A stretch of DNA of 64,000 nucleotides from an uncultured Bacteroidales bacterium (GTDB lineage: Bacteria; Bacteroidota; Bacteroidia; Bacteroidales; Paludibacteraceae). Of this stretch, positions 13,807 through 38,814 are shown one piece after another (position 1 is the stretch's first letter; every line of letters begins with the position of its first letter). Both the position numbers and the translations under genes were made by a program. The DNA lies in assembly GCA_900317745.1 (NCBI GenBank), contig ONHW01000005.1, positions 86,433-150,432 of the forward strand, given 5' to 3'. The notes beneath the pieces are model-generated. The model was not told the DNA's origin. It worked only from the letters and a program-made list of their open reading frames with translations, and did no database searches.

Positions 13807-13919
13807 AAAACTCACTTTCTCTCACATTTCTTCTCATATGATTTGCTTTTTTGATATTTTTTTCGTATCTTTGTAGCGTCTTTCCCGAATGGGATGGACA
13901 AATTACATAAAAGGCGTTT
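13807..13919 (+). promoter_or_regulatory. Duplicated promoter segment, copy 1, upstream of the AlbA-type gene
   Basis: TTTG at 13842-13845 and TATCTTTG at 13866-13873, 20 bp apart, form a consensus promoter. The surrounding 113 bp are nearly identical to 15871-15984, from ACTTTCTCTCACATTTCTTC through ACATAAAAGGCGTTT. The transcript starts near 13880 and has a leader of about 190 nt with a GTCGTAC-TTTT-GTACGAC hairpin at about 13987-14004. Confidence 0.8.
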
Positions 13920-14073
13920 GTCCTGTCGATCGGCTTAGCAGTGCAATAAGTTGCTTTGCAATAAACGCTCTGGTAGATGCGTGACCGTCGTACTTTTGTA
14001 CGACTGAAACAAACTTTGCACGAAATTAGCGTGCGACACGAAACTAAAAAGTAGAATCATTCGAGCAACCACA

Positions 14074-15507
14074 ATGAATAACGAGAATCAAAATATTGAA
14101 TACAAACGGATATGGCAAGATGATAATCTGAAATCCGTCTGCGCTTTTGCCAACTCGCAAGGTGGTATGATGTATATTGGTATTGACGACGATGGTCAAG
14201 TGCTGGGGCTCGATAATGTTCATAAATGGCAAGAAGACATACCTAACAAGATTGTGCAGAACCTTGGTATCGTATGTGAAATTAACACCCAAGAGGAGTT
14301 CGGTAAAACATATCTGGAGATTAGCGTCCTGCCAAGCAATGTACCTATTTCTTACAAGGGTATCTACTATGTCCGTTCGGGTGCAACCAAGCAAGAACTG
14401 AAAGGAACAGCCCTACAACAGTTCCTATTGGTAAAGATGGGTAAGAGTTGGGATGATATTGTTTGCGAAGGAGCAACAATGGAAGATATTGACCGCCACG
14501 CTATTGATTATTTCTTGCGCAAGTCAGCGGATTACGGTCGTATGCCGGGGCTATCGCCAAGTGACTCTACAGAGATTGTTCTTGACAATTTGGATTTGCT
14601 AACCTCTACCGGAGAACTGAAGAACGCAGCTGTTTTACTCTTTGGCAAGCGTCCAAGCCGGTTCTTCTCCGGTATTGATTTTCGTATTTGTCGTTTGGGT
14701 AATAGCGAGTCCGACATCATTGTGCAAGATATGGTTTCGGGTAATCTGATTGAGATGGCAGACAAAGTAATGGATATTCTCAAAGCCAAGTACCTCTATT
14801 CTCCTATTCATTATCAAGGTTTGCAACGAATTGAACCACTGGAGATTCCTGAAGATTCTCTGCGAGAGGCAATCTTCAATGCTATTATCCACAAGGACTA
14901 CATGCGTGGAGTGGACATCCAAATGAAAGTTTATGCCGATTCTTTGTGGTTATGGAATAATGGCAATTTGCCGGAGAGCTACACGGTTGAGACATTATTG
15001 ATTCCGCATTCATCACGTCCGCGCAACCCCAAAATAGCCAATGCTTTTTTCCGCGCGGGATTTATTGAATCGTGGGGCCGAGGTATTGAAAAGATACGCA
15101 ATGCCGGAAACACAAAAGGAATGTCGGCGCCTGTTATCCAAACCGAAATGGGCGGTTTGTCTGTCCGCTTTTTCCGTGCCGGTTTGCCGCAGACATCAGA
15201 TGTTAATGGTACAAGCGGTACAAGTGATATAACCTTACAACCTTACAACCTTACAAGCTCATGCGGTAACCCGTTGAAAAATAAGGGAGACAACCTTACA
15301 ACCATTCAAGCTAACAACCTTACAAGCTTGATGAGTCAGATAACTGATTTTTGTGCTCAATGGCGTTCTTTGAGTGAGATTGCCGAACATGTACAACGCA
15401 GTCGTCAGTATCTTCGTGGCGAGGTTATTCCTCAGATGTTTGATGTTTTGGAACGCAAGTATGACTCGCCCACTCATCCTAAACAGCAATATAGAGCTAA
15501 ACGATAG
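14074..15507 (+). CDS. AlbA_2 (Schlafen-type) domain protein with ATPase-like C-terminal region
   Basis: This 477-residue protein has an N-terminal AlbA_2 domain (IEYKRIWQDDNLKSVCAFAN, GGMMYIGIDDDGQVLGL), the YVRSGATKQEL strand, and a C-terminal HATPase-like/RecG-C region (SLREAIFNAIIHKDYMRGVD, WNNGNLPE, RPRNPKIANAFFRAGFIESWGRGIEKI). A winged helix probably follows (about residues 425-465). Such proteins are annotated as transcriptional regulators or RecG-like and are common in defence islands and mobile DNA; some Schlafen-domain relatives are nucleases. The linker at residues about 385-415 contains three copies of the 8-bp repeat CCTTACAA (15233-15256), translated as TLQPYNLTSS. Its precise role is unknown. 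Confidence 0.75.
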   Translation: MNNENQNIEYKRIWQDDNLKSVCAFANSQGGMMYIGIDDDGQVLGLDNVHKWQEDIPNKIVQNLGIVCEINTQEEFGKTYLEISVLPSNVPISYKGIYYVRSGATKQELKGTALQQFLLVKMGKSWDDIVCEGATMEDIDRHAIDYFLRKSADYGRMPGLSPSDSTEIVLDNLDLLTSTGELKNAAVLLFGKRPSRFFSGIDFRICRLGNSESDIIVQDMVSGNLIEMADKVMDILKAKYLYSPIHYQGLQRIEPLEIPEDSLREAIFNAIIHKDYMRGVDIQMKVYADSLWLWNNGNLPESYTVETLLIPHSSRPRNPKIANAFFRAGFIESWGRGIEKIRNAGNTKGMSAPVIQTEMGGLSVRFFRAGLPQTSDVNGTSGTSDITLQPYNLTSSCGNPLKNKGDNLTTIQANNLTSLMSQITDFCAQWRSLSEIAEHVQRSRQYLRGEVIPQMFDVLERKYDSPTHPKQQYRAKR

Positions 15508-15609
15508 ATTAGTCCATCGAAAGATTCATAGACTTGTTCACAGGACTACTTACACACCGATTCACGCTGATCACATGAAAGACGAAATAGTTTTATAGAA
15601 TCCAACTGA

Positions 15610-15813
15610 CGCAAAATTTGCGACACCCTACGTTCTTCCGGTCTTGAACCGATTGATACGCACATTTGGAAAAATGCGTCGCACGATAGGTGGCTAATCA
15701 TTGATGATACAGTTTATCACTGCGGTCATTCGCTCAAAGATATGGGGCAAAAACTATGTGCAGTATCTTTGTTATCCATCGATGCGGAAGATATACTGAA
15801 GCACGTACGATAA
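15610..15813 (+). pseudogene. C-terminal remnant of an ORF6N/Rha-like protein
   Basis: An open frame of about 67 codons without a start encodes ASHDRWLIIDDTVYHCGHS and LKDMGQKLCAVSLLS, then ends in TAA at 15811-15813. This resembles the conserved C-terminal block of ORF6N-type and related prophage or mobile-element proteins (HDRFLIID...YH-GASLKDLGKK). The N-terminal part is missing; a TGA lies just upstream at 15607. It is probably the relic of a displaced gene. The family name is tentative. Confidence 0.55.
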
Positions 15814-15831
15814 ATCTGCACCCCATCCCCA

Positions 15832-15857
15832 CGAGCATTCCGGTGCTCGTTTTTTTG
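15832..15857 (+). terminator. Intrinsic terminator after the remnant gene
   Basis: CGAGCA-TTCCGG-TGCTCG followed by seven T: a 6-bp stem with a 6-nt loop and a U-run, 18 bp after the remnant's stop codon. Confidence 0.8.
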
Positions 15858-15870
15858 CGGCTTGGACATA

Positions 15871-15984
15871 AAAATGCACTTTCTCTCACATTTCTTCTCA
15901 TAAGATTTGCTTTTTTGATATTTTTTTCGTACCTTTGTAGCGTCTTTCCAGAGAGGGGACTGACAAATGACATAAAAGGCGTTT
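15871..15984 (+). promoter_or_regulatory. Duplicated promoter segment, copy 2, driving the candidate RNA and the RM region
   Basis: TTTG at 15906-15909 and TACCTTTG at 15930-15937 with a 20-bp gap. The whole segment repeats 13807-13919. This is the only strong promoter seen between the AlbA gene and the restriction-modification operon, so it may serve the RNA, the small acidic protein and, by readthrough, the operon. Confidence 0.8.
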
Positions 15985-16204
15985 ATTGACGCTTGTTTTG
16001 GCGGTTAGAAACTTCGCAACTTTCAAAAACTCAGTTCAAAACAATGCAACAATAGATGTCTGCGTTGGGTATATAACTGCACCTGTTAGGGGGTACTATA
16101 TACTTATGCAGCGTAGGCTCTGTGTTGCTTGTATCTGACTGAGATAGGCAATGCGAAGGCCTCTAACCGCAGGACAAGCAAAATTACAGGTCCTGCGCTT
16201 TTTG
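15943..16204 (+). ncRNA. Candidate structured RNA (pseudoknot, long hairpin, terminator)
   Basis: About 260 nt from the predicted start to a T-run, with no open reading frame. GTATATA (16069-16075) pairs with TATATAC (16097-16103). CTGCA inside that loop (16077-16081) pairs with TGCAG just beyond it (16107-16111), an H-type pseudoknot. Next comes a multi-tier hairpin: AGGC...GCCT outside, TTGC...GCAA, then TATCT-GACTG-AGATA at the tip (about 16115-16162). The end is the terminator at 16168-16203. It could be an independent small RNA or a leader that controls the following gene. I do not recognise the family; it lacks tmRNA ends and the RNase P core. Confidence 0.6.
16168..16203 (+). terminator. 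Intrinsic terminator ending the candidate RNA
   Basis: CGCAGGAC (16168-16175) pairs with GTCCTGCG (16190-16197) over a 14-nt loop, followed by CTTTTT. It lies only 27 bp before the small acidic gene, which has no promoter of its own, so that gene probably depends on readthrough. Confidence 0.75.
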
Positions 16205-16229
16205 TGTATGTACCTATACGAAGTAAATC

Positions 16230-16511
16230 ATGGCTAATTGGCAAGACATACGAGCATTAGAAGAACGAATCTACGAGCAAGTAGAGGAGTTTCTGAATAA
16301 TCAGGAGGCTTATGCTATGCCTGTGCTGAACGTCTATCTGGATCATGACGACATGACCTACAAGGCTGCCGCCGAAGACGGATTGCAAGGCACAGAAGAT
16401 GAAGGCATTTATCCGATTCCGGAACTCATCCGCATGGGTGATGATGGCAAGAAAGAGCCTGATATTGATAAGATTAGCGATGTAGCTAATAGTTGGATAT
16501 TTTTAGATTGA
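16230..16511 (+). CDS. Small acidic protein of unknown function upstream of the RM operon
   Basis: A 93-residue, strongly acidic protein (many Asp and Glu, few Lys and Arg) starting MANWQDIRALEERIYEQVEE and ending DVANSWIFLD. The N-terminal third should be helical; the middle contains YLDHDDMTYKAAAEDGLQG. No signal peptide, membrane span, helix-turn-helix or catalytic motif is evident. It lies between the candidate RNA and the leader hairpins of the restriction-modification operon. Small acidic proteins near such operons can be DNA mimics or controllers, but nothing here proves that. The start is set by the ATG at 16230; no in-frame alternative extends it sensibly. Confidence 0.65.
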   Translation: MANWQDIRALEERIYEQVEEFLNNQEAYAMPVLNVYLDHDDMTYKAAAEDGLQGTEDEGIYPIPELIRMGDDGKKEPDIDKISDVANSWIFLD

Positions 16512-16580
16512 AATATAAGAAACAGAAATTGATTAACTAACATATAAAATTCGCATAGTCAAATAGGCATATACCTTGAG

Positions 16581-16690
16581 CAGCAAGTCGGCAAAACAAA
16601 ACTGAAAACAAGGAGATATATGTCCCTGCTATCCGTGTGTTGCATGGGGAAGCGGGGTATTGTTTTCAAGTTTGCCGACTGTGCTTTTTT
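16581..16690 (+). promoter_or_regulatory. Long multi-tier stem-loop in the leader of the RM operon
   Basis: One extended hairpin: AGTCGGCAAA (16586-16595) with TTTGCCGACT (16671-16680); GAAAACAA (16604-16611) with TTGTTTTC (16660-16667); CCCTGCT (16624-16630) with AGCGGGG (16651-16657). GTGCTTTTTT follows, so it can act as a terminator or as a processed RNA. It is 58 bp before the first methyltransferase start. Confidence 0.7.
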
Positions 16691-16703
16691 CTCATCAGAG
16701 ATC

Positions 16704-16735
16704 AACCGGATAGTACACGCTATCCGGTTTTTTTT
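16704..16735 (+). terminator. Strong intrinsic terminator directly before the first methyltransferase
   Basis: A perfect 10-bp stem AACCGGATAG / CTATCCGGTT with a 6-nt loop, followed by eight T. It ends 12 bp before the ATG at 16748. No promoter is visible between it and the gene, so the operon must be transcribed through it. Confidence 0.85.
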
Positions 16736-16747
16736 GATTTTTGAAGA

Positions 16748-17818
16748 ATGAAAAAATATACAGTATTAGATCTATTCTGTGGTTGTGGTGGAATTAGTTA
16801 TGGTTTTGAGCTTGCTGGGTTCAAAATCATAGGTGGTATCGATTTCAATGAAGATGCCACCAAAACATTCAAACACAATTTTAAGGACGCGAAGGTTCGT
16901 CATGGTTACATAGAAAAAGTAACCGATGACGAAGTCCTGAGAGATTATGGAGGTGTTGATGTAATAGTAGGCGGACCTCCCTGTCAAGGATTCTCTACCG
17001 CTAATAGATGGCAAAAAGAAGAGGATGATCCTCGTAATAAGTTATTCTTTGAGTATATTCGATTTGTTAAATTATTGCGTCCCAAGATTATTCTCATAGA
17101 GAACGTCCGTGGTATATTGACGCGCAACAATGGCTATGCAAAAGAGCGTATTACTACCATTCTTGGAGAAGAAGGGTATTCTTTAAACATGCAAGTGCTT
17201 GATGCCTCTGAGTATGGTGTACCTCAAAATCGAAAACGCGCCATTATCGTGGGTGTTCGTAACGATTACAAGGACATGCTTTTTGATTTTGCGAAACTCA
17301 AAAAGAAACCCAAGGTTACCGTTGAAGATGCGATAGGAGAATTGTATCAGTTTGAACAAGAGAATCCTGAAAACAAAATCCTTACTGAGAAGCCATCTAC
17401 TCAATACCGGAAATATCTAAGAGCGACCGATAATGAAGTATTATCGCACGATGTGCGTTATCCCGCGGATATCGTGCAACGCCGTATCAGTTTTGTTCCG
17501 CAAGGAGGAAACTGGGAAGATGTTCCTGCAGAGTTATGGAAGAACAACCGTCAGAACCGACATTCGTCAGCCTACAAACGTTTAGATCCGAACACACAAT
17601 CGTGCACGATTGATACTGGAAATGCACATAGCAACTACTTCCATCCCCTGTTTAATCGTATTCCGAGTGTCAGGGAATCTGCTCGTTTGCAATCGTTCTC
17701 AGATAGATTTGAATTTATGGGATCGCGCGGTAGTCAGTATAAACAAGTAGGAAATGCAGTACCACCGCTACTTGCAAAAGCAATCGCGGATGCTATTATG
17801 GAAATTTTGAAGTCATGA
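16748..17818 (+). CDS. DNA (cytosine-5) methyltransferase, first of a tandem pair
   Basis: This 356-residue enzyme shows the C5-methyltransferase motifs in order: motif I DLFCGCGGISYGFELAGF at the N-terminus, motif IV GGPPCQGFST with catalytic Cys79, motif VI ENVRG, motif VIII QNRKR, then a target-recognition region and motifs IX-X (RESARLQSF, YKQVGNAVPPLLAKAI). It transfers a methyl group from S-adenosylmethionine to a cytosine in the recognition site and so protects the host from the linked nuclease. The stop codon overlaps the next start by 4 bp. Two such enzymes side by side suggest an asymmetric site, each enzyme modifying one strand, as in LlaJI. Confidence 0.95.
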   Translation: MKKYTVLDLFCGCGGISYGFELAGFKIIGGIDFNEDATKTFKHNFKDAKVRHGYIEKVTDDEVLRDYGGVDVIVGGPPCQGFSTANRWQKEEDDPRNKLFFEYIRFVKLLRPKIILIENVRGILTRNNGYAKERITTILGEEGYSLNMQVLDASEYGVPQNRKRAIIVGVRNDYKDMLFDFAKLKKKPKVTVEDAIGELYQFEQENPENKILTEKPSTQYRKYLRATDNEVLSHDVRYPADIVQRRISFVPQGGNWEDVPAELWKNNRQNRHSSAYKRLDPNTQSCTIDTGNAHSNYFHPLFNRIPSVRESARLQSFSDRFEFMGSRGSQYKQVGNAVPPLLAKAIADAIMEILKS

Positions 17819-18855
17819 AGATAATAGATTTATTTTGTGGAATCGGAGGTTTGAGTCTCGGTTTTGAACAAGCCGGTTTTGAAGTTGTTTCCGCTGTGGA
17901 CATGTGGGAAGATGCCGTTAAGACATATAACCACAATCGGGAGCAGAAAGTGGCTCAGGTTATTTCTGTCGAGGACTACAACGACCTCGTATTACCAACC
18001 GTTCTTGCACATCAAGGACATATTACCGGTATTATTGGAGGTCCCCCTTGTCAAGGTTTCTCAACTGTAGGTCGTCGTGTGGTAGATGATCCTCGTAATA
18101 AAATGTACCTTGAGTTCTATAAGGCCGTTAAGTTGGCTAAACCTGACTTCTTTGTCATCGAGAACGTAAAGGGCATGTTAACATTGAACAAAGGTGCATT
18201 TGTGAAAGATTTGTTAGCTCGCTTTGGCAAAGAAGGTGTTGATGGCGAGAAAGGGTTAGGATATACTATTTCTTATCAATTAGTGAACGCAGCAGACTAT
18301 GGTGTTCCTCAAAATAGATACCGTGTATTCTATGTCGGAATAAAAAACAAAAAGTTTGTTTTCCCTGAACCATTTGGATATCAATTAACCGCTAAAGATG
18401 GTATTAGTGACTTGTTGCACTCTACGAACGAATACTACGGCTCTGAACCTGTAAATGATTTCCAGAGAGCAATGCGCGGAAACATGACGCATCCAATCAA
18501 TCAAGATTACACAGACCATAGCCAACAAACTATTGATATTATCAGTAAAATTCCTGATGGCGGTAACATTCGGAGTTTACCCCGTGAGTATTGGGAAGTA
18601 CGAAAGTATAATAAGGCATTTGAAAGGATGGGAACTTTCAAGCCATCTAATACAATAGATACGGGCCATAGAAATTATTTCCACTATGCAGAACCACGTA
18701 TCCCCACATTGAGGGAGTCTGCCCGATTACAGAGTTTCCCAGATTCCTTTGAAGTGTTAGGTACTCGTGGTAGTCAGTATAAACAAGTCGGAAATGCAGT
18801 ACCGCCTATGTTGGCTTATGTTATTGCACAGAATATCAAACAAATCCTAGAATAA
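17815..18855 (+). CDS. DNA (cytosine-5) methyltransferase, second of a tandem pair
   Basis: This 346-residue enzyme is a diverged paralogue of the preceding one: motif I DLFCGIGGLSLGFEQAGF, motif IV GGPPCQGFSTVGR with catalytic Cys79, motif VI ENVKG, motif VIII QNRYR, and the C-terminal RESARLQSFPDSFEV and YKQVGNAVPPMLAYVI. The target-recognition region (about residues 195-290) differs from that of its neighbour, as expected for a different target strand or sequence. ATGA overlap with the upstream gene indicates translational coupling. The next gene starts 2 bp after its stop. Confidence 0.95.
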   Translation: MKIIDLFCGIGGLSLGFEQAGFEVVSAVDMWEDAVKTYNHNREQKVAQVISVEDYNDLVLPTVLAHQGHITGIIGGPPCQGFSTVGRRVVDDPRNKMYLEFYKAVKLAKPDFFVIENVKGMLTLNKGAFVKDLLARFGKEGVDGEKGLGYTISYQLVNAADYGVPQNRYRVFYVGIKNKKFVFPEPFGYQLTAKDGISDLLHSTNEYYGSEPVNDFQRAMRGNMTHPINQDYTDHSQQTIDIISKIPDGGNIRSLPREYWEVRKYNKAFERMGTFKPSNTIDTGHRNYFHYAEPRIPTLRESARLQSFPDSFEVLGTRGSQYKQVGNAVPPMLAYVIAQNIKQILE

Positions 18856-18857
18856 GT

Positions 18858-19604
18858 ATGAGAGTAGTAATTCCAAATAATACATACAAGGGGATTGCTG
18901 ATGGATCTAGTTTAACCAATGATAGACGTAAACAGATTCTATCTATATACGATTTTGTCAATACTTTAGGCAACGAGCCATTAACATACAAATCCCTACA
19001 AGAGAGAGTGGCAGATGAAGATTACGGCATATCTGATAGTGCCATCCGAACTTTCTTCCCACTATTAGGAAAATTGGGGTTCGTTGATTACAAAGATACT
19101 TTCCCTGCATGTGAACTATTCACAAAGACAGGAAAAGTGTTTATGGAAACTTTCAAATCTTTGCTTTATGCGGAAGATCTTCATCCTCAAAACAAGCGAC
19201 TGATTGATGAAATAAACCATTGCTTAACAACTATCCAAAGATATGGCCTCTTGTACATGAATAGCCAAGAAGAATTTAAACAACATGGCATTTGGCTCGC
19301 TCTTGCTATCTTAAAACAGGAGCAGGAAATATATTGGTCTGAGTTTTTATTCTTCCTGCATCTGTGTAAAGACAAGCATATGTCTATCAAAGATGCCGCA
19401 AAAGAGGTTAAAGCGAATAGATTAAAGAATGTAGAGTACGAATACTATAATTCAGATAACAAGCCTATAGCAGGTACTTCTTACTCGTACACGCATGCTT
19501 TTCTCGAAGAAGCCGGTATCCTCCGTGACATCGAAGTTAATCACTCTCTATTGAACGAGGGTATGTTTGATTTTATCGAATTAATTGACAACTACTATGA
19601 ATAA
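18858..19604 (+). CDS. Winged-helix-like protein of the restriction operon
   Basis: A 248-residue protein whose N-terminal part (LTNDRRKQILSIYDFVNTLG, YKSLQERVADEDYGISDSAI, RTFFPLLGKLGFVDYKD) has the helix pattern of a winged-helix DNA-binding domain. The rest is helical and ends IELIDNYYE. I do not recognise a catalytic motif. In the BsuMI system of Bacillus subtilis, three genes (ydiR, ydiS, ydjA) accompany two methyltransferases; by position this gene could correspond to YdiR. It may help recognise the target site. It sits inside the operon with a 2-bp gap upstream and an 8-bp overlap downstream. Confidence 0.65.
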   Translation: MRVVIPNNTYKGIADGSSLTNDRRKQILSIYDFVNTLGNEPLTYKSLQERVADEDYGISDSAIRTFFPLLGKLGFVDYKDTFPACELFTKTGKVFMETFKSLLYAEDLHPQNKRLIDEINHCLTTIQRYGLLYMNSQEEFKQHGIWLALAILKQEQEIYWSEFLFFLHLCKDKHMSIKDAAKEVKANRLKNVEYEYYNSDNKPIAGTSYSYTHAFLEEAGILRDIEVNHSLLNEGMFDFIELIDNYYE

Positions 19605-21312
19605 GGAAACCATTGAAGGCAACATTAGAGATAGTTTATCTCGTGCCTTAAAATTAATGAATGGCGAGGATGTCCTTACGTCCATGGCAAACACTATTCT
19701 CTTCCAATCCAACAATGCAAAGGACTTTGTATGGGGATCTGTGAAGGCTTTGCACAAAGAAGGTGTATTTAGAGAACTATTTGACTCAAAATGGAAGAAA
19801 CGTTGGTATAACAATTACATTCTTATCAATGATTGTTATGTGGCTTGCACTACACCAGATGGAACAGATGGTGATACCATTGGCATGTATGATGACGAAT
19901 TCCTAAATGATAATTTCCGAGTTGATGGCGGAATATTGGATGTTAAGAAATTTGCCAAAGCTGTTAATGATGTATATGCAGATCGCTATAAAGTAGTCAT
20001 TGAAGAAGATAACTTCAAGCTAATTAAGTTACAGAATAAAAAGCAGATAACTCCCATAGTCGAAGTGCCTGCAATGACATCGCAAGACTATCAATACATG
20101 GCAGCCATCAAGACTAAACCATTTTTGATTCTTGGCGGTTTCTCCGGCACAGGTAAGAGTATTGCGGTTAAGTCGCTCGCGTTTGCCACTTGCCCATGCG
20201 ATGGATATTTGAACGCATCTGAAACAACTCCGGGGAACTATCTCTTGTTATCCGTAAAACCCAATTGGCACGATGCAACTGAGATAACCGGATTCCGTTC
20301 GTCAGTTAACCATAACTACTACGTCACGGATTATATGAAGTTCGTGATTAAGGCTAAAATGTACGAAGATCAAAATGTGCCTTTCTTCGTTTGTTTGGAT
20401 GAGATGAACTTGGCACCGGTAGAGGAATATTTTGCAGACTTCCTCAGCGTTATCGAAAGCCGCACAAAGAGACAAGATGGTAGAATCGTCACCGACGCAT
20501 TGATTTCAAAGAGCGTATTTAACGATTCCAATTATGCGGATGACTTCAACATTTTCCTTGAACTTGGAATTCATCCAACGATTGAAGTAAATGATCTCAC
20601 GGAATTCAATGCCCAATTAAAAGCAAGTGAGGAAGAGGCGTTCTATCAAGAACAATGGCTTGTAGATGAACTTAAGGAACACGGCATGACTATTCCGCAG
20701 AACTTGATCGTTATCGGCACGGTCAATATGGACGACACCACCAATAGTTTCAGCCGTAAGGTGATTGACCGCGCCATGACATTTGAGACCGTAGTTGGTG
20801 AGTTTGATGTCGATGATTATTTTGCTGATGGTTCAGGTATTCTTATGGAATACTGCCAGAAACCTTCAAAAGGCGAGTTATATATTTCCGATGAAGTGCG
20901 TGCAACGGATTTGGATAGCAATTATTTGAACGATAAGGAGAAAAAGCAAATCATTGACTTCATCAACAATATCAATAAAGATCTTGATGGTACTCCGTTC
21001 CAAATCAGTTACCGCATTCTCAACGAAACTATCTTACTCTATCGGTCTAAGAAAGAGATAGACCACATTATTGGTAGCGGGTTTGAATTAGGTGTTGAAT
21101 TCTCGCTTGACTTGAATGACATATTCGACGATATCCTGATGCAAAAGATTCTGCCGCGTATTGAAGGCGATTATGACAAGTGTCATACCGCTATCGAAAA
21201 CCTAAGTAGACGCGCCAAAGATTCCGAATGGAAACGCAGCATTGACAAATTAGCGTTTATGGAGCGCCGATTTGGACCTGACAAGAGTGGATTTACTTCA
21301 TTCTGGAATTAA
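19597..21312 (+). CDS. McrB-like AAA+ NTPase restriction subunit
   Basis: The 571-residue protein contains Walker A GGFSGTGKS near residue 180, a Walker B region FFVCLDEMNLAPVEEYFADF, and GTVNMDDTTNSFSRKVIDRA, the NxD/arginine-finger region typical of McrB-type GTPases. It would form a hexameric motor that translocates DNA and drives the partner nuclease. The N-terminal 150 residues are probably a DNA-binding or partner-binding domain. ATG 19597 is preferred; an upstream in-frame TTG at 19585 would add four residues. Comparable proteins are LlaJI.R1 and BsuMI YdiS, both linked to methyltransferases rather than acting as methyl-dependent McrBC. Confidence 0.88.
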   Translation: MNKETIEGNIRDSLSRALKLMNGEDVLTSMANTILFQSNNAKDFVWGSVKALHKEGVFRELFDSKWKKRWYNNYILINDCYVACTTPDGTDGDTIGMYDDEFLNDNFRVDGGILDVKKFAKAVNDVYADRYKVVIEEDNFKLIKLQNKKQITPIVEVPAMTSQDYQYMAAIKTKPFLILGGFSGTGKSIAVKSLAFATCPCDGYLNASETTPGNYLLLSVKPNWHDATEITGFRSSVNHNYYVTDYMKFVIKAKMYEDQNVPFFVCLDEMNLAPVEEYFADFLSVIESRTKRQDGRIVTDALISKSVFNDSNYADDFNIFLELGIHPTIEVNDLTEFNAQLKASEEEAFYQEQWLVDELKEHGMTIPQNLIVIGTVNMDDTTNSFSRKVIDRAMTFETVVGEFDVDDYFADGSGILMEYCQKPSKGELYISDEVRATDLDSNYLNDKEKKQIIDFINNINKDLDGTPFQISYRILNETILLYRSKKEIDHIIGSGFELGVEFSLDLNDIFDDILMQKILPRIEGDYDKCHTAIENLSRRAKDSEWKRSIDKLAFMERRFGPDKSGFTSFWN

Positions 21313-21315
21313 AGC

Positions 21316-23619
21316 ATGGAGGTTCTTCGGTTACATAATGATCAATATACGATAACCATCTCCACCGCTACAAGCGGGTCAGCATGGGAACGGTTCGAAC
21401 GTCGCGTCGGAAATGAGGCGTTGCGTTACTGCGACTATGCCTCGTCCTACGCAAGCAAGTTGTCGCTTAGTCATCCCAAGGCGCATTTTACTCTGCAACC
21501 GGTATCAAACAATGAGGCTACGGAGTGGAAAGAGAAACATCCCGTCCTCTTTGAAACCAATGAGTACCAGTTTGCTGTTGAGTTCCATAACTCGCTGACG
21601 CTTGATGGGAACGAAAAGCACACCCCACACGTGCGTCACCCGCTCAAATCAGTAGTGGATTCCTTCAAGTTCTATCAAAGCGGCTCCGATAGTGGTTTCC
21701 TTGTTGGCTCAATTGATTTCCTTAACTCACCGGGTAAGTTCCGCTTTGCCTTTGAATACTACGACTTGGAAGGACAATTATGCGAGCAATGGTTTGAACT
21801 ATATGTGGCATCGCCGAAGTTAGATACCAAGAACGATCTAAAGAAGATTACCGCTCTCATCAATCGGGAGTACGAAAACTATGTCTTTGACTATCTGACG
21901 CTCACGTTCTCCAGCTACAACCTCCAACGCGCGGAACGCAATAACCAAATCATTTGGCTCAGCATATTCAAGTCAGTTGTGAATCTGTATTTTCGGAACG
22001 TACGGTACATTATGCCCAAGCCGAACAACAAACCAATCCGCAGGACATACGTGTCGCGACCGGAACGTATCCGCAGATGGAATCAACAGGAAGAAGAACG
22101 GTTTAAGAACCTTGGCGCTGATGCTGATAAGCACTTCTTCCGATACGAGCAAACGGAAAATACGGCAGACACCAAGGAGAATCGTTTCGTCAAATACTCG
22201 CTCCACGTCTTAGGCAAGAAATACCGCCAAGTGTTCAAGGAAGTGCGCAGCCTATATTCTGAAATGGATTCTGAGGAGATAGCTGCATTTGAGAACTATA
22301 GCCGAATCTTTGCCAATCTGGAGTCCGCTCCGTTCTTCCGTCAAGTAGGCGCGTTCGAGGGATTCCGGCAAGAGAGCGCTATCCTGCAACAACGAACCGG
22401 CTATAGCCAGATATATAAGGCCTGGCTGATGTTACGCAATTCGCTTGATTTGGTGGAAGGCAAGACCGAAATCGGAATGAAGAAGATATGGGAACTCTAC
22501 GAGATTTGGTGTTTCCTCATAATGAAACGACTCATCGCCAAGACCCTTTCTATTGACATCGATGCCGAGCTTGCTAAACCTGCTGACGAACATCCGCGTA
22601 TCCGAGAAGATAAATCGGAAATGCTCGTATCATTGGCGCAAAGCGATGTGAACCATATCGTGGAATTCGATGCTCCCAATGGAGATATAGTGCGGTTGGA
22701 ATACCAACACACCTATAATCGTCGTTCCACTGAAACAAAGACGGTCACCACCGAACAACGTCCAGACATCCAAATCACCATCACCAAACCAGATGGATTT
22801 GTCTTGACCTATCTCTATGACGCCAAGTACAGAGTGCAAGACGACAAGAAGAGTCAAGAGGAAGACATGGATATTGACATCGCCGACTTCCCGTTACCAG
22901 ACGCGATCAACCAAATGCACCGCTATCGCGACGCCATCTACTATAGTATAAAAGCCGAAGAACGACCGGAAGCCAAAGAGATCATCGGTGGTTATATTCT
23001 CTTCCCCGGGCGCACCTTTGGTGATGCAATTGAGAATCGGTATTTCTATAAGTCAATCGCACAAGTAAACATTGGTGCGTTCCCATTGCTACCGGCAGAG
23101 GAAGGTGTTGATGGTTTAATACAGTGCGACCTCTTGGAGAAACACTTGCAGGACATCTTACTTAACAACACGGCTTACGAGCAAATCAAAGATTCGATCC
23201 CGCAGAAAGGTTTGCAATATAACCATGCTATCCATAATCAAACGGAATTGGTTATTGTCAACCAAGCGAAAGAACTCAAGCGCACGCGTATGGTTGACCA
23301 ACAAATCTGCTATGCACCTGCTGCTTTTGAAAAGGGTTCATTGCGGCTTGTTCCGGGATACGAAACAACCAGATATGCATTGCTGCACAATGGCACAAAG
23401 GGAGACTTGTTCGAACTGAAAGATACCGGTGTGCGTATTGCACCTAAAGCAGAGTTGAGCAACAAACTCGCCATTGATCCGAGTGAACTATCGCACGATT
23501 ATTACCTCATTTTTGATCTCAAATCAAAGACTCCGTGCGCAACCGAAATCCTCGTACCCAAACGTGGTGCTCTTACTTCCGCCCCACATTTTATTAAATA
23601 TAGTGATTTGATTATATAA
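21316..23619 (+). CDS. McrC-like nuclease subunit (DUF2357 plus PD-(D/E)XK)
   Basis: This 767-residue protein follows the McrB-like gene by 3 bp. The N-terminal and middle parts fit the DUF2357 family (RRTYVSRPERIRRW, DTKENRFVKYSLHVLGKKYR), found in LlaJI.R2 and BsuMI YdjA. A PD-(D/E)XK nuclease core follows at about residues 455-520: VRLEYQHTYNR, then RPDIQITI and LTYLYDAKYRVQDD, giving the D...D-A-K catalytic triad. It should cut DNA when activated by the McrB-like motor at unmodified sites. Length and layout are normal and there are no frameshifts. Confidence 0.85.
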   Translation: MEVLRLHNDQYTITISTATSGSAWERFERRVGNEALRYCDYASSYASKLSLSHPKAHFTLQPVSNNEATEWKEKHPVLFETNEYQFAVEFHNSLTLDGNEKHTPHVRHPLKSVVDSFKFYQSGSDSGFLVGSIDFLNSPGKFRFAFEYYDLEGQLCEQWFELYVASPKLDTKNDLKKITALINREYENYVFDYLTLTFSSYNLQRAERNNQIIWLSIFKSVVNLYFRNVRYIMPKPNNKPIRRTYVSRPERIRRWNQQEEERFKNLGADADKHFFRYEQTENTADTKENRFVKYSLHVLGKKYRQVFKEVRSLYSEMDSEEIAAFENYSRIFANLESAPFFRQVGAFEGFRQESAILQQRTGYSQIYKAWLMLRNSLDLVEGKTEIGMKKIWELYEIWCFLIMKRLIAKTLSIDIDAELAKPADEHPRIREDKSEMLVSLAQSDVNHIVEFDAPNGDIVRLEYQHTYNRRSTETKTVTTEQRPDIQITITKPDGFVLTYLYDAKYRVQDDKKSQEEDMDIDIADFPLPDAINQMHRYRDAIYYSIKAEERPEAKEIIGGYILFPGRTFGDAIENRYFYKSIAQVNIGAFPLLPAEEGVDGLIQCDLLEKHLQDILLNNTAYEQIKDSIPQKGLQYNHAIHNQTELVIVNQAKELKRTRMVDQQICYAPAAFEKGSLRLVPGYETTRYALLHNGTKGDLFELKDTGVRIAPKAELSNKLAIDPSELSHDYYLIFDLKSKTPCATEILVPKRGALTSAPHFIKYSDLII

Positions 23620-23623
23620 AAAT

Positions 23624-24061
23624 ATGCCCGATGTACTCACCCCACAACAACGCCACCGCTGCATGTCGCATATTCGCAGCAAGGCAACCAAGCCGGAGAT
23701 ACTGGTTCGGAAATGGCTGTGGGCGCACGGGTACAGATACAGGTTGAACGTAAAGAGTGTACCTGGTAAGCCGGACATAGTGATGCGCAAGTACAGAACG
23801 GCAATCTTCGTCAATGGCTGTTTCTGGCACGGACATGAAGGATGCAAATATTTCATAATGCCGAAAACAAACACAGCATTTTGGCAAAACAAAATAGAGA
23901 ACAATCGTCAACGCGACAAGCGGAACTACTACATACTTCTCCAAAATGGTTGGCAAGTGATTGTCCTTTGGCAATGCGAGCTATCCCATGAAAGGATAGA
24001 AAAGACCATGCAAGCCGTAGCACTGTCGCTGAACGTGAGCTTTTTGACGATTGCTAAATAG
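23624..24061 (+). CDS. vsr: Vsr very-short-patch-repair endonuclease
   Basis: The 145-residue enzyme has the Vsr hallmarks: MSHIRSKATKPEILVRKWLW, the catalytic aspartate in VPGKPDIVM, and the zinc-linked FVNGCFWHGHEGC, ending with VIVLWQCELS. Vsr nicks next to T:G mismatches produced when 5-methylcytosine deaminates, starting repair back to C:G. It therefore protects sites modified by the two linked cytosine methyltransferases. It is the last gene of the operon (4-bp gap) and is followed by a strong terminator. Confidence 0.95.
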   Translation: MPDVLTPQQRHRCMSHIRSKATKPEILVRKWLWAHGYRYRLNVKSVPGKPDIVMRKYRTAIFVNGCFWHGHEGCKYFIMPKTNTAFWQNKIENNRQRDKRNYYILLQNGWQVIVLWQCELSHERIEKTMQAVALSLNVSFLTIAK

Positions 24062-24122
24062 CCTAACATTATTAGCATATCATTTGCGGTATGCTTGTCT
24101 TGTATATTTTCCACCACCACCT

Positions 24123-24164
24123 TGCACCTTTTGCAAAAAAATACGCAAAAGGTGCATTTTTTTT
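24123..24164 (+). terminator. Terminator of the RM operon
   Basis: A perfect 12-bp stem TGCACCTTTTGC / GCAAAAGGTGCA with a 10-nt loop, followed by eight T. Confidence 0.9.
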
Positions 24165-24197
24165 GAGCTTGTGACAAGATATAGCACTTTCTTGTTG

Positions 24198-24205
24198 TAT
24201 CTTTG
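24198..24205 (+). promoter_or_regulatory. Possible -7 element upstream of a 27-codon ORF
   Basis: TATCTTTG matches the -7 box exactly, but no TTTG lies 19-21 bp upstream, so promoter strength is doubtful. Transcription would start near 24211, about 70 nt before the small ORF. Confidence 0.4.
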
Positions 24206-24281
24206 TGGTCGAAATCGTGCTGTGTCCGCTCGATCGGACGCTAACGAATGACTGATGTTGAACACTCAAAATCACACAACC

Positions 24282-24365
24282 ATGCAAGAGATTTTAACTA
24301 CCCTTCTCGCCCTCGGTGAAGTGGCGCTGTACGTCTATCTGCTTATCGCCCTGTGCTTATGTTAG
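24282..24365 (+). CDS. Possible 27-residue hydrophobic peptide
   Basis: ATG to TAG encodes a peptide starting MQEILTTLLALGEVALYVY and continuing LLIALCLC, a single predicted membrane span with almost no charge. It follows a -7 box and sits between the restriction operon and the AbiE locus. Short single-span peptides in such islands can be type I toxins, but no antisense RNA was identified and no family is recognised. The rest of the gap (24366-24575) shows nothing I can support. Confidence 0.35.
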   Translation: MQEILTTLLALGEVALYVYLLIALCLC

Positions 24366-24575
24366 CGTTTTGCGTCTTTCATTTATGTGCGACTGCACTC
24401 CGTCAATCATTCCCTGCTTGAACATGATCATTCACCCAGAGTGTATAAGTGCTCGAAAAGAAATACTGCATAGCCAAGTAGGGAGCTGGGGTGCACTCAA
24501 GCGGGTGGGAATCATCATGTAGAATTAGGCAATTTCAACGAAAAGACACTTTTCTTGCAAAAATGTTCGTAAATA

Positions 24576-24607
24576 TTTGCATAATTGAAGAAAATGTTGT
24601 ATCTTTG
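24576..24607 (+). promoter_or_regulatory. Promoter of the AbiE operon
   Basis: TTTG at 24576-24579 and TATCTTTG at 24600-24607, 20 bp apart. The sequence AAATATTTGCATAATTGA around the -33 box is nearly repeated at the promoter at 26403, suggesting a common origin. Confidence 0.8.
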
Positions 24608-24644
24608 CGTAGATTTTCGAAAATTTGCGGTGATTTTCACTACT

Positions 24645-25406
24645 ATGGCGACAAAAATTAAGCAAATAACAGAGCAGACAGGCTTGGATGGTCTATTGTT
24701 CGGAAGCTGGATGAACCAGCAAGGAATAGATAGTAAACGGCAGCTTGAATACGTCCAAAGCGGTTGGTTGGAGCGGATAGCACGCGGCGTGTATAAGTTT
24801 GCTGGAAGCCATCCGACGCTCTATAGTGCCATTTCTTGCTACAACACGCAGTTGAACAAACAATGTATTGTGGGTGCAAGAAGTGCTATCGAACTACGAG
24901 GTTACAGCCATTATGTTCCAATGGGTAAGCCTGTCGCATTTCTTTTTACGGACAATACCCACAAACTGCCAGAATGGTTACTACTTGGTCAATGGGACAT
25001 GACAGTCCGTTACCAGACCACCTCATTTCTGGGCGAGGATCTGCTTGGTGTAGAAACGCAGATGGTGGATAGTCGCCCATTGTTGGTTTCATCACCGGAA
25101 AGGGCAATGCTTGAATGGCTAAACATGCCGAGTATCAATTCTTCGCTACTCGACGTGTATTATGTTATGGAGATGTTAGCCACCTTGCGTTCGGACTTAG
25201 TACAACAGTTATTGGAGCGATGTACTTCTGTCAAGGCGAAACGCTTGTTTATGTACATGGCTGAAAAAACCGGCTTTACGTGGGTAGATGATATAGACAA
25301 GACAAAAATAGATTTCGGAAGCGGACGCCGAATGATAGTGCCCAAAGGCAAATATATCAAGCAATATGACATGACTATTCCAACCGGTTTAGCAGAATAT
25401 GAATGA
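24645..25406 (+). CDS. abiEi: AbiEi-type antitoxin
   Basis: The 253-residue protein fits AbiEi: an N-terminal winged helix (LDGLLFGSWMNQQGIDSKRQ, then LEYVQSGWLERIARGVYKF) followed by the C-terminal antitoxin domain (CIVGARSAIELRGYSHYVP, SSPERAMLEWLN). AbiEi represses its own operon and neutralises the AbiEii nucleotidyltransferase toxin; the pair acts as a type IV toxin-antitoxin system in phage defence. The ATG at 24645 lies 38 bp after the promoter -7 box; a longer frame from 24585 would begin upstream of the -7 box, so it is not used. The stop overlaps the toxin start by 8 bp. The gene is intact. Confidence 0.85.
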   Translation: MATKIKQITEQTGLDGLLFGSWMNQQGIDSKRQLEYVQSGWLERIARGVYKFAGSHPTLYSAISCYNTQLNKQCIVGARSAIELRGYSHYVPMGKPVAFLFTDNTHKLPEWLLLGQWDMTVRYQTTSFLGEDLLGVETQMVDSRPLLVSSPERAMLEWLNMPSINSSLLDVYYVMEMLATLRSDLVQQLLERCTSVKAKRLFMYMAEKTGFTWVDDIDKTKIDFGSGRRMIVPKGKYIKQYDMTIPTGLAEYE

Positions 25407-26299
25407 TGTGTACCAAAACAAAGTGGGGTTACTAATCCGTCTCATGCCTTATGTGATGAACGAAGGCGTGTTTGCGGTTCATGGAGGTAGCGCAATCAAT
25501 CTTTTTGTCAAAGACATGCCGCGATATTCGGTGGATATAGACTTGACTTACATGCCATTAGCCGGTCGTGAGGAGAGTCTCAACGATATATAACAACCAC
25601 CTCCTCCACATAGCCGAAGAAGCGAAGAAAGGCATACCCGGACTACATATCGTACCCAAATTGGCAACGTGCAAACTTCTTTGTGAATATCATGGATTTC
25701 AAATAAAAGTTGAGGTAAATCAAACCAAACGTGGTATTGTTGGAGGAAATATATTGACACTGCCTTTGTGTAATAACGCTAAGACAGAGTTTAGACTTTC
25801 TTGCAAGGCACAAATCGTTCCTTTGACACTTCTCTATGGCGGCAAGATAGCAGCAGCTCTATCGCGCCAACACCCGCGAGACTTGTTTGATGTCAAGTAT
25901 ATGGATGTGCCTTTATCTGAAGTTCGAGAAGGACTCATCTTTTGCCTTTTAGGTAGCGACCGTCCTATTCATGAGTCGTTTGCTCCCACTTTGATTGACC
26001 AACGAGATACGATGTCGAACCAGTTTGATGGTATGACGGATTTTCAGTTCTCTTATGAGGATTTTGAGCAAACACGCGCTAAATTGATAGCGGATGTACG
26101 TTCGTTGATGACAGACGCCGACAAACAGTTTCTCTTGAGTTTTGAAGCCGTAGAACCATTGTGGGAGAACTATGAGTTTGAGTATTTCCAAAACTACCCT
26201 TCTGTCCAATGGAAACTGCTCAATCTTGCCAAACTCAAGAAACAGAATCCCGCCAAACTATATGCCGAAGTGGAGAAACTGCAAGAAATATTTGGCTGA
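25399..26299 (+). pseudogene. abiEii: AbiEii-type nucleotidyltransferase toxin, frameshifted
   Basis: The first 64 codons encode the nucleotidyltransferase motif GGSAINLFVKDMPRYSVDID (G-G-S...D-x-D) and end at TAA 25591-25593 after GREESLNDI. The remainder of the family (NNHLLHIAEEAKKGIPG, LLYGGKIAAALSRQHPRDLF, then a helical C-terminus) continues in another frame to 26299. Removing one T in GATATATAAC (25585-25594) would restore SLNDINNHLL, so a single-base insertion explains the break. The truncated product lacks most of the fold and should be inactive. A sequencing or assembly error is the main alternative. Confidence 0.85.
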
Positions 26300-36877: not shown

Positions 36878-36950
36878 GCCTCTTTAGCTCAGTTGGTAGA
36901 GCACTCGATTTGTAATCAAGCGGTCGTTGGTTCGAGTCCGACAAGAGGCT
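36878..36950 (+). tRNA. tRNA-Thr (anticodon TGT)
   Basis: Cloverleaf with acceptor GCCTCTT / AAGAGGC, D-arm AGCTCAGTTGGTAGAGC, anticodon loop TTTGTAA and T-arm TTCGAGTC. CCA is not encoded. Confidence 0.95.
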
Positions 36951-36990
36951 CTTCGCGCTCGGCAGGAGTGAACATTGATAAATTGAAATT

Positions 36991-37073
36991 GGGTGTGTTC
37001 CAGAGTGGCCAAATGGGGCAGACTGTAAATCTGCTGCTTTTCAGCTTCGGTGGTTCGAATCCATCCGCACCCA
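36991..37073 (+). tRNA. tRNA-Tyr (anticodon GTA)
   Basis: A class II tRNA of 83 nt with a long variable arm (GCTGCTTTTCAGCTTC), acceptor GGGTGTG / CGCACCC (one G-U pair), anticodon loop CTGTAAA and T-arm GTTCGAATC. Confidence 0.95.
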
Positions 37074-37128
37074 CACAAAGACACCGCTAACGCGGAGGAG
37101 ATGTGAAGGTCTCGCGTTTCGCGGAATT

Positions 37129-37204
37129 GCGGAAATAGCTCAGTCGATAGAGCACTAGCCTTCCAAGCTGGGGGTCGCGGGTTTGAGTCCCGTTTTCCGC
37201 TCCA
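37129..37204 (+). tRNA. tRNA-Gly (anticodon TCC)
   Basis: Acceptor GCGGAAA / TTTCCGC, D-arm AGCTCAGTCGATAGAGC, anticodon loop CTTCCAA, T-arm GTTTGAGTC; CCA is encoded at 37202-37204. Confidence 0.95.
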
Positions 37205-37232
37205 TTGCTGAGGCCCCGATAGCTAAAGCGTT

Positions 37233-37304
<72 letters not shown>

Positions 37305-37306
37305 CA

Positions 37307-37347
37307 AAAGGACAAAAGGGGCGCATGCCTTGAGTCCTTTATTTTTT
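37307..37347 (+). terminator. Terminator after the tRNA cluster
   Basis: AAAGGAC pairs with GTCCTTT around an inner AAGG / CCTT stem, followed by ATTTTTT. It separates the tRNAs from tuf, which begins 50 bp later. Confidence 0.75.
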
Positions 37348-37396
37348 GTGAAAGAAAACCAATAACAATTATTAACGTTAATAAAAAGTAATTACT

Positions 37397-38584
37397 ATGG
37401 CAAAAGAAAAATTTGACCGTTCGAAACCGCACGTTAACATCGGTACAATCGGTCACGTTGACCACGGAAAAACAACCCTGACGGCTGCTATTACGTTGGT
37501 TCTTTCGAAGAAGGGCCTCTCTGAGGTTAAGAGCTTCGATCAGATTGATAACGCTCCTGAGGAGAAAGAGCGTGGTATCACTATTAACACCGCTCACGTA
37601 GAGTATCAGACGGCTAACCGTCACTATGCTCACGTAGACTGCCCGGGTCACGCCGACTATGTAAAGAACATGGTAACGGGTGCTGCCCAGATGGACGGTG
37701 CAATCATCGTAGTAGCTGCAACTGACGGTCCGATGCCTCAGACTCGTGAGCACATCCTGTTGGCTCGCCAAGTAAACGTTCCGCGTCTGGTTGTATTTAT
37801 GAACAAGTGCGACCTCGTGGACGATCCCGAGATGCTCGACCTCGTAGAGATGGAGATGCGTGAGCTTCTGTCGTTCTATGATTTCGACGGCGACAACACT
37901 CCTGTAATCCGCGGTTCTGCTCTTGGCGCACTGAACGGTGTACCCGAGTGGGAAGAGAAGATTATGGAGCTCATGGATGCTTGCGACAACTGGATCCAAC
38001 TTCCGGTTCGCGCCGTTGACAAACCGTTCCTGATGCCTGTTGAGGACGTATTCTCGATCACCGGTCGTGGTACTGTTGCTACAGGTCGTATCGAGACCGG
38101 CGTTGTTAAGGTAGGTGACGAGGTTCAGCTCATCGGTCTGGGTAGCGAAGGACGCAAGTCTGTTGTTACCGGTGTTGAGATGTTCCGTAAGTTGCTCGAC
38201 CAAGGTGAGGCTGGCGATAACGTAGGTCTGCTGCTCCGTGGTATTGACAAAGACGAAGTTCGTCGTGGTATGGTACTTACCCACCCGGGTGTAGTTAAAC
38301 CTTACAGCGAGTTCAAGGCTTCTGTATATATCCTGAAGAAGGAAGAAGGTGGCCGTCACACTCCGTTCCACAACCACTATCGTCCTCAGTTCTACATCCG
38401 TACAATGGACGTTACCGGTGAGATCACTCTGCCGGAGGGAACTGAGATGGTAATGCCGGGTGACAACCTCGAGATCCAGGTTAAGCTGATCTATCCGGTT
38501 GCTTGCTCAGAGGGTCTGCGTTTCGCTATCCGTGAGGGTGGTCGTACCGTAGGTTCGGGTCAGATTACCAAACTTATCGACTAA
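37397..38584 (+). CDS. tuf: Elongation factor Tu
   Basis: The 395-residue GTPase carries G1 GHVDHGKTT, switch II DCPGH, NKCD and GSALGALNG, followed by the two beta-barrel domains ending [14 protein letters not shown]. It delivers aminoacyl-tRNAs to the ribosome. The gene order tRNAs-tuf-trnW-secE-nusG-rplKAJL-rpoBC is the conserved bacterial arrangement. Repeat element E (reverse orientation) begins at the first base after the stop codon, which is unusual for a gene this highly expressed. Start and length match the family. Confidence 0.98.
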
Positions 38585-38702
38585 TTCGCGTTCGGCAACG
38601 CGGTCGCACAGATTGCGCATGGCGCAATAAAAGCGACGCGTGCCTTCGCTCCCCCCCCCCATCGCAAACAGCCTACGGCTTGGTTTACGCTGGGGACCCC
38701 AA
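38585..38702 (-). repeat. Dispersed element E, reverse-orientation copy after tuf
   Basis: Read on the minus strand it ends GCCGAACGCGAA against the tuf stop codon. It contains a perfect 7-bp hairpin ATTGCGC-ATG-GCGCAAT (38612-38628), the GAGCGAAGGCA box and AAGCCGTAGGCTGTTTGC. A run of ten C (38651-38660) lies inside. It aligns well with the copy at 57291-57408. Confidence 0.75.
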
Positions 38703-38743
38703 AATGGGAAAAATGCTCGGGGTGACGAGCCCCGAGCAGATTT

Positions 38744-38814
38744 ACGGAAGTCCTCCAATGGTAGGAGAGCGGTCTCCAAAACCGTCAATGTGGGTTCGAT
38801 TCCTGCCTTCCGTG
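38744..38814 (+). tRNA. tRNA-Trp (anticodon CCA)
   Basis: Acceptor ACGGAAG / CTTCCGT, D-arm TCCTCCAATGGTAGGA, anticodon loop CTCCAAA, T-arm GTTCGATTC. It lies between tuf and secE, its usual place. Confidence 0.95.

Follow-up and report, generated by a model that had tools for sequence, protein, structure and literature searches.

A portable leader RNA of Bacteroidales, probably a transcription attenuator, precedes a restriction-modification operon and many unrelated genes

How are the methyltransferase genes of a restriction-modification (RM) operon transcribed if a series of terminator-like hairpins separates them from their promoter? The question is raised by a stretch of 64,000 nucleotides (nt) from an uncultured Bacteroidales bacterium of the Paludibacteraceae (assembly GCA_900317745.1, contig ONHW01000005.1, positions 86,433 to 150,432 of the forward strand), which is called the window in the following. 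The original prediction regarded the arrangement as transcription attenuation of the RM operon, with a 93-residue acidic protein (ORF93) as potential antiterminator. All elements it named are present: the promoter at 15906-15937, the terminator at 16168-16203, ORF93, a stem-loop with a T-run ending at 16690, and an inverted repeat at 16704-16735. In window coordinates the region is organized as follows.

15906-15937, + strand: promoter of the Bacteroidota sigma-ABfr type, with TTTG at 15906 and TACCTTTG at 15930-15937
15942-15960, + strand: short 5' hairpin between promoter and RNA1, GTCTTTCC/GGGGAC, read from the sequence
15968-16210, + strand: RNA1, member of a structured leader-RNA family (cmsearch 254 bits across the whole model; this copy is one of the 19 seeds)
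16168-16203, + strand: intrinsic terminator of RNA1, GCAGGAC/GTCCTGC followed by GC and T5
16230-16511, + strand: ORF93, the 93-residue acidic protein, first gene after RNA1, from the list of open reading frames (ORFs)
16538-16735, + strand: RNA2, a second leader-RNA family, inside the operon (nhmmer E 1.5e-55; 156.5 bits with model R2; this copy is a seed of both)
16704-16735, + strand: inverted repeat with T-run, ACCGGATAG/CTATCCGGT, 12 bp 5' of the ATG
16748-24061, + strand: six-gene restriction operon encoding two C5-methyltransferases, a 248-aa protein, a weakly AAA-like protein, a DUF2357/PDDEXK_7 protein and Vsr

It is likely that RNA1 is a cis-acting transcription-attenuation leader, a portable switch of the regulon type that has the RM operon as one of its clients. 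The regulon-type reading follows from the occurrence of RNA1 before many unrelated genes of one genome. Transcription would begin about 25 nt upstream of RNA1, and a large folded domain would form. If the intrinsic terminator is then formed, RNA polymerase would halt before ORF93; alternatively, an upstream segment would capture the 5' arm of the terminator and the polymerase would read through. Of the possible partners of this arm, the middle segment GUUGCUYGUUC has the best support, and a 5' segment comes second. The choice between terminator and read-through would lie with the folded domain or with its binding partner. Both events in the cell are what we infer from the features of the locus. 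What the comparison of sequences itself shows are the two RNA families and where they lie, the promoter box, the helices that covary and a loss in the RNA2 copy of the window.

The promoter matches the sigma-ABfr consensus given in the available part of PMC7366714 (TTTG near -33, TAnnTTTG at -7), and the transcription start would lie near 15943. On the + strand of 15001-17000 the TANNTTTG box occurs twice, once in this promoter and once at 15764, with a terminator-like site at 15831-15850 between the 15764 box and the promoter. The claim that 15906-15937 is the only strong promoter before the methyltransferases is thus slightly overstated. A strong promoter at 16512-16700, which the original prediction had named as an observation against itself, was also looked for: 16512-16747 contains no TANNTTTG box, the nearest sequences being TATTTTT at 16498 and TACCTTG at 16572. 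The RNA of 15938-16206 folds with a predicted energy of -103.2 kcal/mol (z -7.2) and that of 16550-16747 with -72.5 kcal/mol (z -6.4), and in neither case was any of 200 shuffled sequences as stable. A simple terminator scan of both strands of 14500-26000 yielded 21 sites compared to 9.6 expected; the RNA1 terminator is not listed there because its 14-nt loop lies beyond the 3-8 nt accepted by the scan. Three further copies of the same genome (L021, L022, L023) possess a block resembling the 5' hairpin.

RNA1 belongs to a widely distributed family. A DNA search with 15880-16240 found matches in 60 of 101 genomes of relatives, many of them with several. An alignment of 19 copies has 38 consensus pairs, of which 17 show at least one double change, and the covariance model R1 of RNA1 comprises 247 positions and 38 pairs. 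With the own genome counted in each case, R1 matches 42 of 61 genomes of relatives at E 0.001, and within the genus of the window 36 of 37. In the order sample, 62 of 295 genomes, from 40 of 183 genera, match at E 1e-4; in the phylum sample, 2 of 296 do so at E 1e-5. The own genome contains 17 matches at E 0.01, of which 13 are strong (E 1.4e-13 or better). A pattern scan of named genomes revealed at least 114 stretches. Of the 80 listed, nearly all bear titles of Bacteroidales taxa (Paludibacteraceae, Muribaculaceae, Prevotella with its relatives, Paraprevotella, Segatella copri and others); four titles contain Clostridium, Firmicutes, Eubacteriales or Lachnospiraceae, and one reads just "uncultured bacterium". 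The cultured Paraprevotella xylaniphila YIT 11841 carries a full match (L145, 99.9 bits), and incomplete matches at the edge of a stretch were found in P. xylaniphila (L194) and in Segatella copri iAQ1173 (L178, 53.4 bits).

A known RNA family was considered and rejected. The leader has no Rfam 15 hit at gathering score, and allowing E values up to 5 adds only four hits by chance; the copies of six relatives gave no Rfam 15 match at E up to 0.5, and otherwise the searches returned tRNAs elsewhere in the window (five matches on the + strand at 36878-38814). Among open-licence PMC papers we found no description of RNA1 or RNA2. A plasmid search gave no match and a phage search one weak record covering 38% of the query. 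The viral contig IMGVR_UViG_3300021319_000137 contains RNA1 (L249, 384-640, 130.6 bits) 7 nt before an ORF of 577 aa. Several shorter matches of about 175-185 nt with lower scores lie within 400 bases of contig starts (for example G076:C338, G130:C564, G139:C6, G139:C36, G207:C5, G231:C223), which suggests a shorter, repeated RNA1 subfamily in other families of the order.

To relate RNA1 to its surroundings we considered 72 well-scoring copies with context. A downstream ORF of at least 60 aa was called for 69 of them (all but L039, L055 and L095); it is co-oriented in 68 of these 69, at a median distance of 58 nt. The own genome has 12 other strong copies, five of which also belong to the set of 72, and six of the 12 are followed within 90 nt by a co-oriented ATG frame of at least 60 codons. 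In 54 of the 72 copies a TANNTTTG box is present in the 120 nt before RNA1; 60 shuffles gave 6.0 on average and never more than 10. Of 57 boxes, 39 are located 35-67 nt before RNA1. An intrinsic terminator is thereby placed between promoter and first codon, as in an attenuator leader, with the first codon 171-469 nt off in the remaining six of the 12 own-genome copies. In 70 of the 72 copies the sense strand has the more stable fold (mean -93.4 kcal/mol, compared to -72.0 for the antisense strand). The attC site of integrons is a single-stranded DNA recombination site; such a site was set aside for RNA1 because of this difference and of the frequent G-U pairs. A leader peptide was provisionally set aside: ATG ORFs of at least eight codons occur in 65 of the 72 copies, and the first 60 listed differ in length and, close copies excepted, also in sequence, with no conserved short ORF among them.

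The first downstream proteins of 71 copies span 54 Pfam families at E 1e-4, none with more than five members. Among the 25 families listed are BspA-type leucine-rich repeats (5), sigma-70 region 2 (3), EcoRI-type methylases (2) and type III restriction (2). An N-terminus resembling a signal peptide or membrane segment was found in 33 of the 71 proteins by a simple hydrophobicity rule of our own, which also catches two soluble-looking small proteins. A few clients are recognized by PADLOC models of methyltransferases or restriction enzymes (among the 25 of 57 families listed). Defence genes are one client group among several, and RNA1 would serve many unrelated genes of the genome, including those for secreted or surface proteins and for defence, as well as sigma factors in relatives. 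The reading as a device specific to the RM operon was dropped because the same leader stands before unrelated genes. The more general part of the original prediction has fared better: on/off control by hairpins before the RM operon is plausible, with both RNA elements recurring as a structured domain with terminator and competing helix and with covarying terminator stems, but it would not be special to restriction genes.

The argument for a switch arises from the helices of RNA1 that compete for the terminator. They were examined in an alignment (A5) of the 72 copies, 71 of them distinct, which was fitted to a model without the antiterminator helix.

16046-16050 with 16124-16128, + strand: helix P4, contained in the model
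16125-16134 with 16172-16181, + strand: antiterminator candidate AT, sharing bases with P4 and the terminator, absent from the model

P4 is paired in 356 of 360 cells, and the terminator stem in 92.5% of cells with 56 double-changed cells compared to 20.8 in shuffles (0 of 500); both helices are in the model, so that the alignment leans towards them. At least five U follow within 10 nt of the terminator stem in all 72 copies. AT consists of standard pairs in 94.6% of cells and has 52 double-changed cells compared to 13.1 in shuffles (0 of 500). If its partner is slid by one to three columns, pairing falls to 26-54%. The six AT pairs outside the P4 segment are paired in 93.2% of cells, with 50 double-changed cells compared to 12.2. 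AT, terminator and P4 are all kept in 60 of the 72 copies. Since AT and the terminator share bases, they are mutually exclusive, and a conserved terminator-excluding helix is thus found in RNA1, that of RNA2 being weaker and nested folding energies not favoring AT.

Several observations weigh against this interpretation. The 72 copies are mostly the top hit of each genome and no random draw. The six-pair core of AT keeps 68-71% pairing if slid by one column, and counted as pairs with any double change the signal is small both for AT (6 compared to 3.7, matched by 20 of 500 shuffles) and for the terminator (4 compared to 3.5, matched by 244 of 500). A rival helix between the 5' segment and the same terminator arm is 91.8% paired but covaries less strongly, with 12 double-changed cells compared to 4.5. 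For the window copy, nested folding without constraints yields -97.0 kcal/mol; imposing the terminator gives -92.6 and imposing AT -80.6. The unconstrained fold favors the rival 5' helix, and folds of successive prefixes form no AT pair. As AT crosses P2, it may be a pseudoknot beyond the scoring of nested folding. Finally, the start codon lies 171-469 nt away in six of the 12 other own-genome copies.

This last distance would also suit the first of four rival explanations, which are in part compatible with an attenuation leader. RNA1 could be a stand-alone small RNA with multiple copies, terminated at its own hairpin and acting in trans like FopS, for which the excerpt of PMC11697453 describes multicopy Bacteroides small RNAs of about 65-70 nt with a single-stranded 5' end and a terminator. 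Both RNA1 and FopS are multicopy RNAs of the same bacterial order with sigma-ABfr promoters and terminators, and the promoter box, compact fold, terminator and several copies per genome of RNA1 are what a small RNA would show. Yet the FopS size of 65-70 nt and its plan of single-stranded seed and terminator are not found in a model of 247 positions and 38 pairs, the near-constant co-orientation and short distance of the downstream ORFs (68 of 69, median 58 nt) point to a function in cis, and covarying helices competing with the terminator have no obvious role in a terminated small RNA. We regard this explanation as unlikely.

A second possibility, to which we give little credence, is a mobile attenuator, a transposon-borne terminator that was spread before unrelated genes and co-opted there, as in the attenuator regulons with similar terminators before non-homologous genes of which the accessible text of PMC2965389 reports. 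The unrelated clients, a partial copy of RNA1 at 13816-13919 and short flanking repeats slightly above expectation (mean 4.81 nt compared to 4.56, sd 0.11) would agree with it. RNA1 differs, however, in its large covarying structure and in that no insertion-sequence link was seen; no transposase occurs among the 25 listed of the 54 Pfam families of the 71 downstream proteins, the family is spread across 40 of 183 genera, and the distance to the promoter box is mostly fixed (between -67 and -35 for 39 of 57).

The partial copy itself is a 92% copy of the RNA1 promoter, the 5' hairpin and the first bases of RNA1, followed by unrelated sequence, and it precedes an SLFN/AlbA_2 gene at 14074-15507. 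The fold of 13875-14073 is slightly more stable than shuffles (z -2.3, 4 of 200).

Of the described types of control, riboswitch-type attenuators, including orphan candidates, resemble RNA1 in being 5' leaders with a conserved fold, a terminator with competing helix, and unrelated genes behind them. Unlike the described riboswitch classes, RNA1 has no Rfam 15 match and no known ligand, and it occurs in many copies per genome before accessory genes. In the capsule operons of Bacteroides, NusG-like UpxY proteins act by antitermination and their genes sit in the operons served, as far as the available portion of PMC12118408 describes. RNA1 shares with these systems a premature termination in the untranslated leader of a Bacteroidales operon that has to be overcome. 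It differs in that what is conserved is a structured RNA some 240 nt long and that no shared gene of the UpxY kind was seen behind it: a NusG-like gene was absent from the 25 listed of the 54 Pfam families of the first downstream proteins and from the scanned window proteins. A review of RM control (PMC3874152) describes antisense RNAs, and the term attenuation does not occur in its accessible part.

RNA2, located between ORF93 and the methyltransferase genes, would be a second attenuator with the same logic. Its further elements are the following.

16624-16637 with 16643-16657, + strand: AT2, the antiterminator candidate of RNA2 (13 of 14 pairs in the window, 9-14 of 14 across 16 copies)
16586-16595 with 16671-16680, + strand: conserved outer hairpin of RNA2, now near the T-run at 16685-16690
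16679-16680, + strand: gap of 22 nt in the window copy compared to L026, the missing nucleotides holding the 3' arm of the RNA2 terminator

Model R2 yields 27 matches at E 1e-4 in 14 of the 61 genomes of relatives, all of the genus of the window, with 24 genomes of other genera searched. The 18-pair terminator of RNA2 is paired in 97.1% of cells, with 28 double-changed cells compared to 6.5 (0 of 500). AT2 reaches 91.3% pairing compared to 89.2 in shuffles (2 of 500), and its covariation is weak (4 double-changed cells compared to 1.6, 27 of 500), which also counts against an attenuator. In the window copy 5 of the 18 terminator pairs can be formed, compared to 16-18 in the other 15 copies. 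As the outer hairpin now adjoins the T-run, the window RNA2 without its 3' arm could be locked open or act as a fixed partial terminator. The loss of 22 nt may be an assembly error in this genome.

RNA2 lies directly 5' of start codons in many copies, and several carry a repeat resembling that at 16704-16735. Of 33 RNA2 copies, 24 have a TANNTTTG box in the 150 nt before them; the four located behind ORF93 or a homologue all lack one. RNA2 often precedes restriction genes. Clients with a restriction or modification Pfam match were found in the window, L026, L124 and L132 (methyltransferase), L102 (Vsr), L103 (HNH) and L130 (Mrr), and in L131 a methyltransferase is the second gene after RNA2; the client genes in L123, L108 and L120 have no Pfam match. 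Many copies (L108, L109, L118, L119, L122, L257-L275) precede a recurring pair of small genes, one of about 115-185 aa and the other of about 160-275 aa, and these copies often come after genes that look like RM genes on visual inspection. The one member checked, in L108, has no Pfam match, and the pair may be a mobile unit. The upstream flanks of L032 and L040 (RNA1) and of L108 and L109 (RNA2) share a stretch close to GACGTTAAACAGGAGGACATATT, which suggests a 5' module common to both families.

The presence of two elements in series allows for a third explanation, namely that RNA1 modifies RNA polymerase to pass later terminators such as 16704-16735. EAR and put RNA are elements of such processive antitermination, and more terminator-like hairpins do follow later in the operon. 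RNA1 itself, though, ends in a conserved terminator, and a search with R1 of 16 other RNA2 loci gave no RNA1 match better than E 0.1, so that RNA2 does not need RNA1. Processive antitermination therefore seems quite improbable.

ORF93 has a pI of 4.05 and five homologues of 88-93 aa (59-91% identity). It has no match in Pfam, PADLOC or NCBIfam, and its predicted structure (pLDDT 87.6) has no fold match in the PDB at E 0.001; its best sequence hits are short helix matches with E 0.0055 and worse. These searches likewise give no sign of a small helix-turn-helix C-protein. ORF93 follows RNA1 in 2 of 72 copies (window, L026), and it or a homologue directly precedes RNA2 in 4 of 33 (window, L026, L130, L131). 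A methyltransferase or restriction gene comes after each of the five family members examined, out of six with L115. This last association and the four RNA2 loci would speak for ORF93 as the antiterminator of its own RM operon, as first proposed, but a protein that is acidic, has no convincing family or fold match and is associated with so few copies of either RNA is a very doubtful candidate.

In related loci the leader elements are combined with different genes. In L026, from another genome of the same genus, RNA1, ORF93 (91% identical), RNA2 and the 16704 repeat are present at about 88% DNA identity, and the RM operon behind them is a different one, encoding another methyltransferase, an AAA protein and a protein that matches LlaJI weakly. 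L130 contains an ORF93 homologue of 92 aa, an intact RNA2 and a Mrr-type nuclease, followed by counterparts of the two window methyltransferases that are 97% identical to them. The original prediction expected the leader structures in such a homologous operon; the ORF93 homologue and RNA2 are there, but L130 has no RNA1 match. The leader module apparently moves as a unit. Orthologues of two operon proteins were found in a family sample of 150 genomes in the own genome only, and the sole orthologous operon, that of L130 in genome G054, was found by the searches with ORF93 and RNA2. In the window the RM operon is followed by an AbiEi/AbiEii pair, together forming a defence block at 16748-26299.

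Beyond the attenuation leader as such, we tentatively raise the possibility, which at present we would not favor, that RNA1 and RNA2 are sister classes of a new switch sensing a ligand or a factor, which Bacteroidales would put, promoter included, in front of accessory genes; a single cellular signal would then open or silence many operons simultaneously, phage defence included. With 13 strong copies in one genome, an occurrence in 40 of 183 genera and a position outside Rfam 15, the RNA1 family would represent a level of gene regulation not yet described in this major order of gut bacteria, and its cultured carriers make it open to experiment. Restriction systems would then fall under attenuation at the RNA level.

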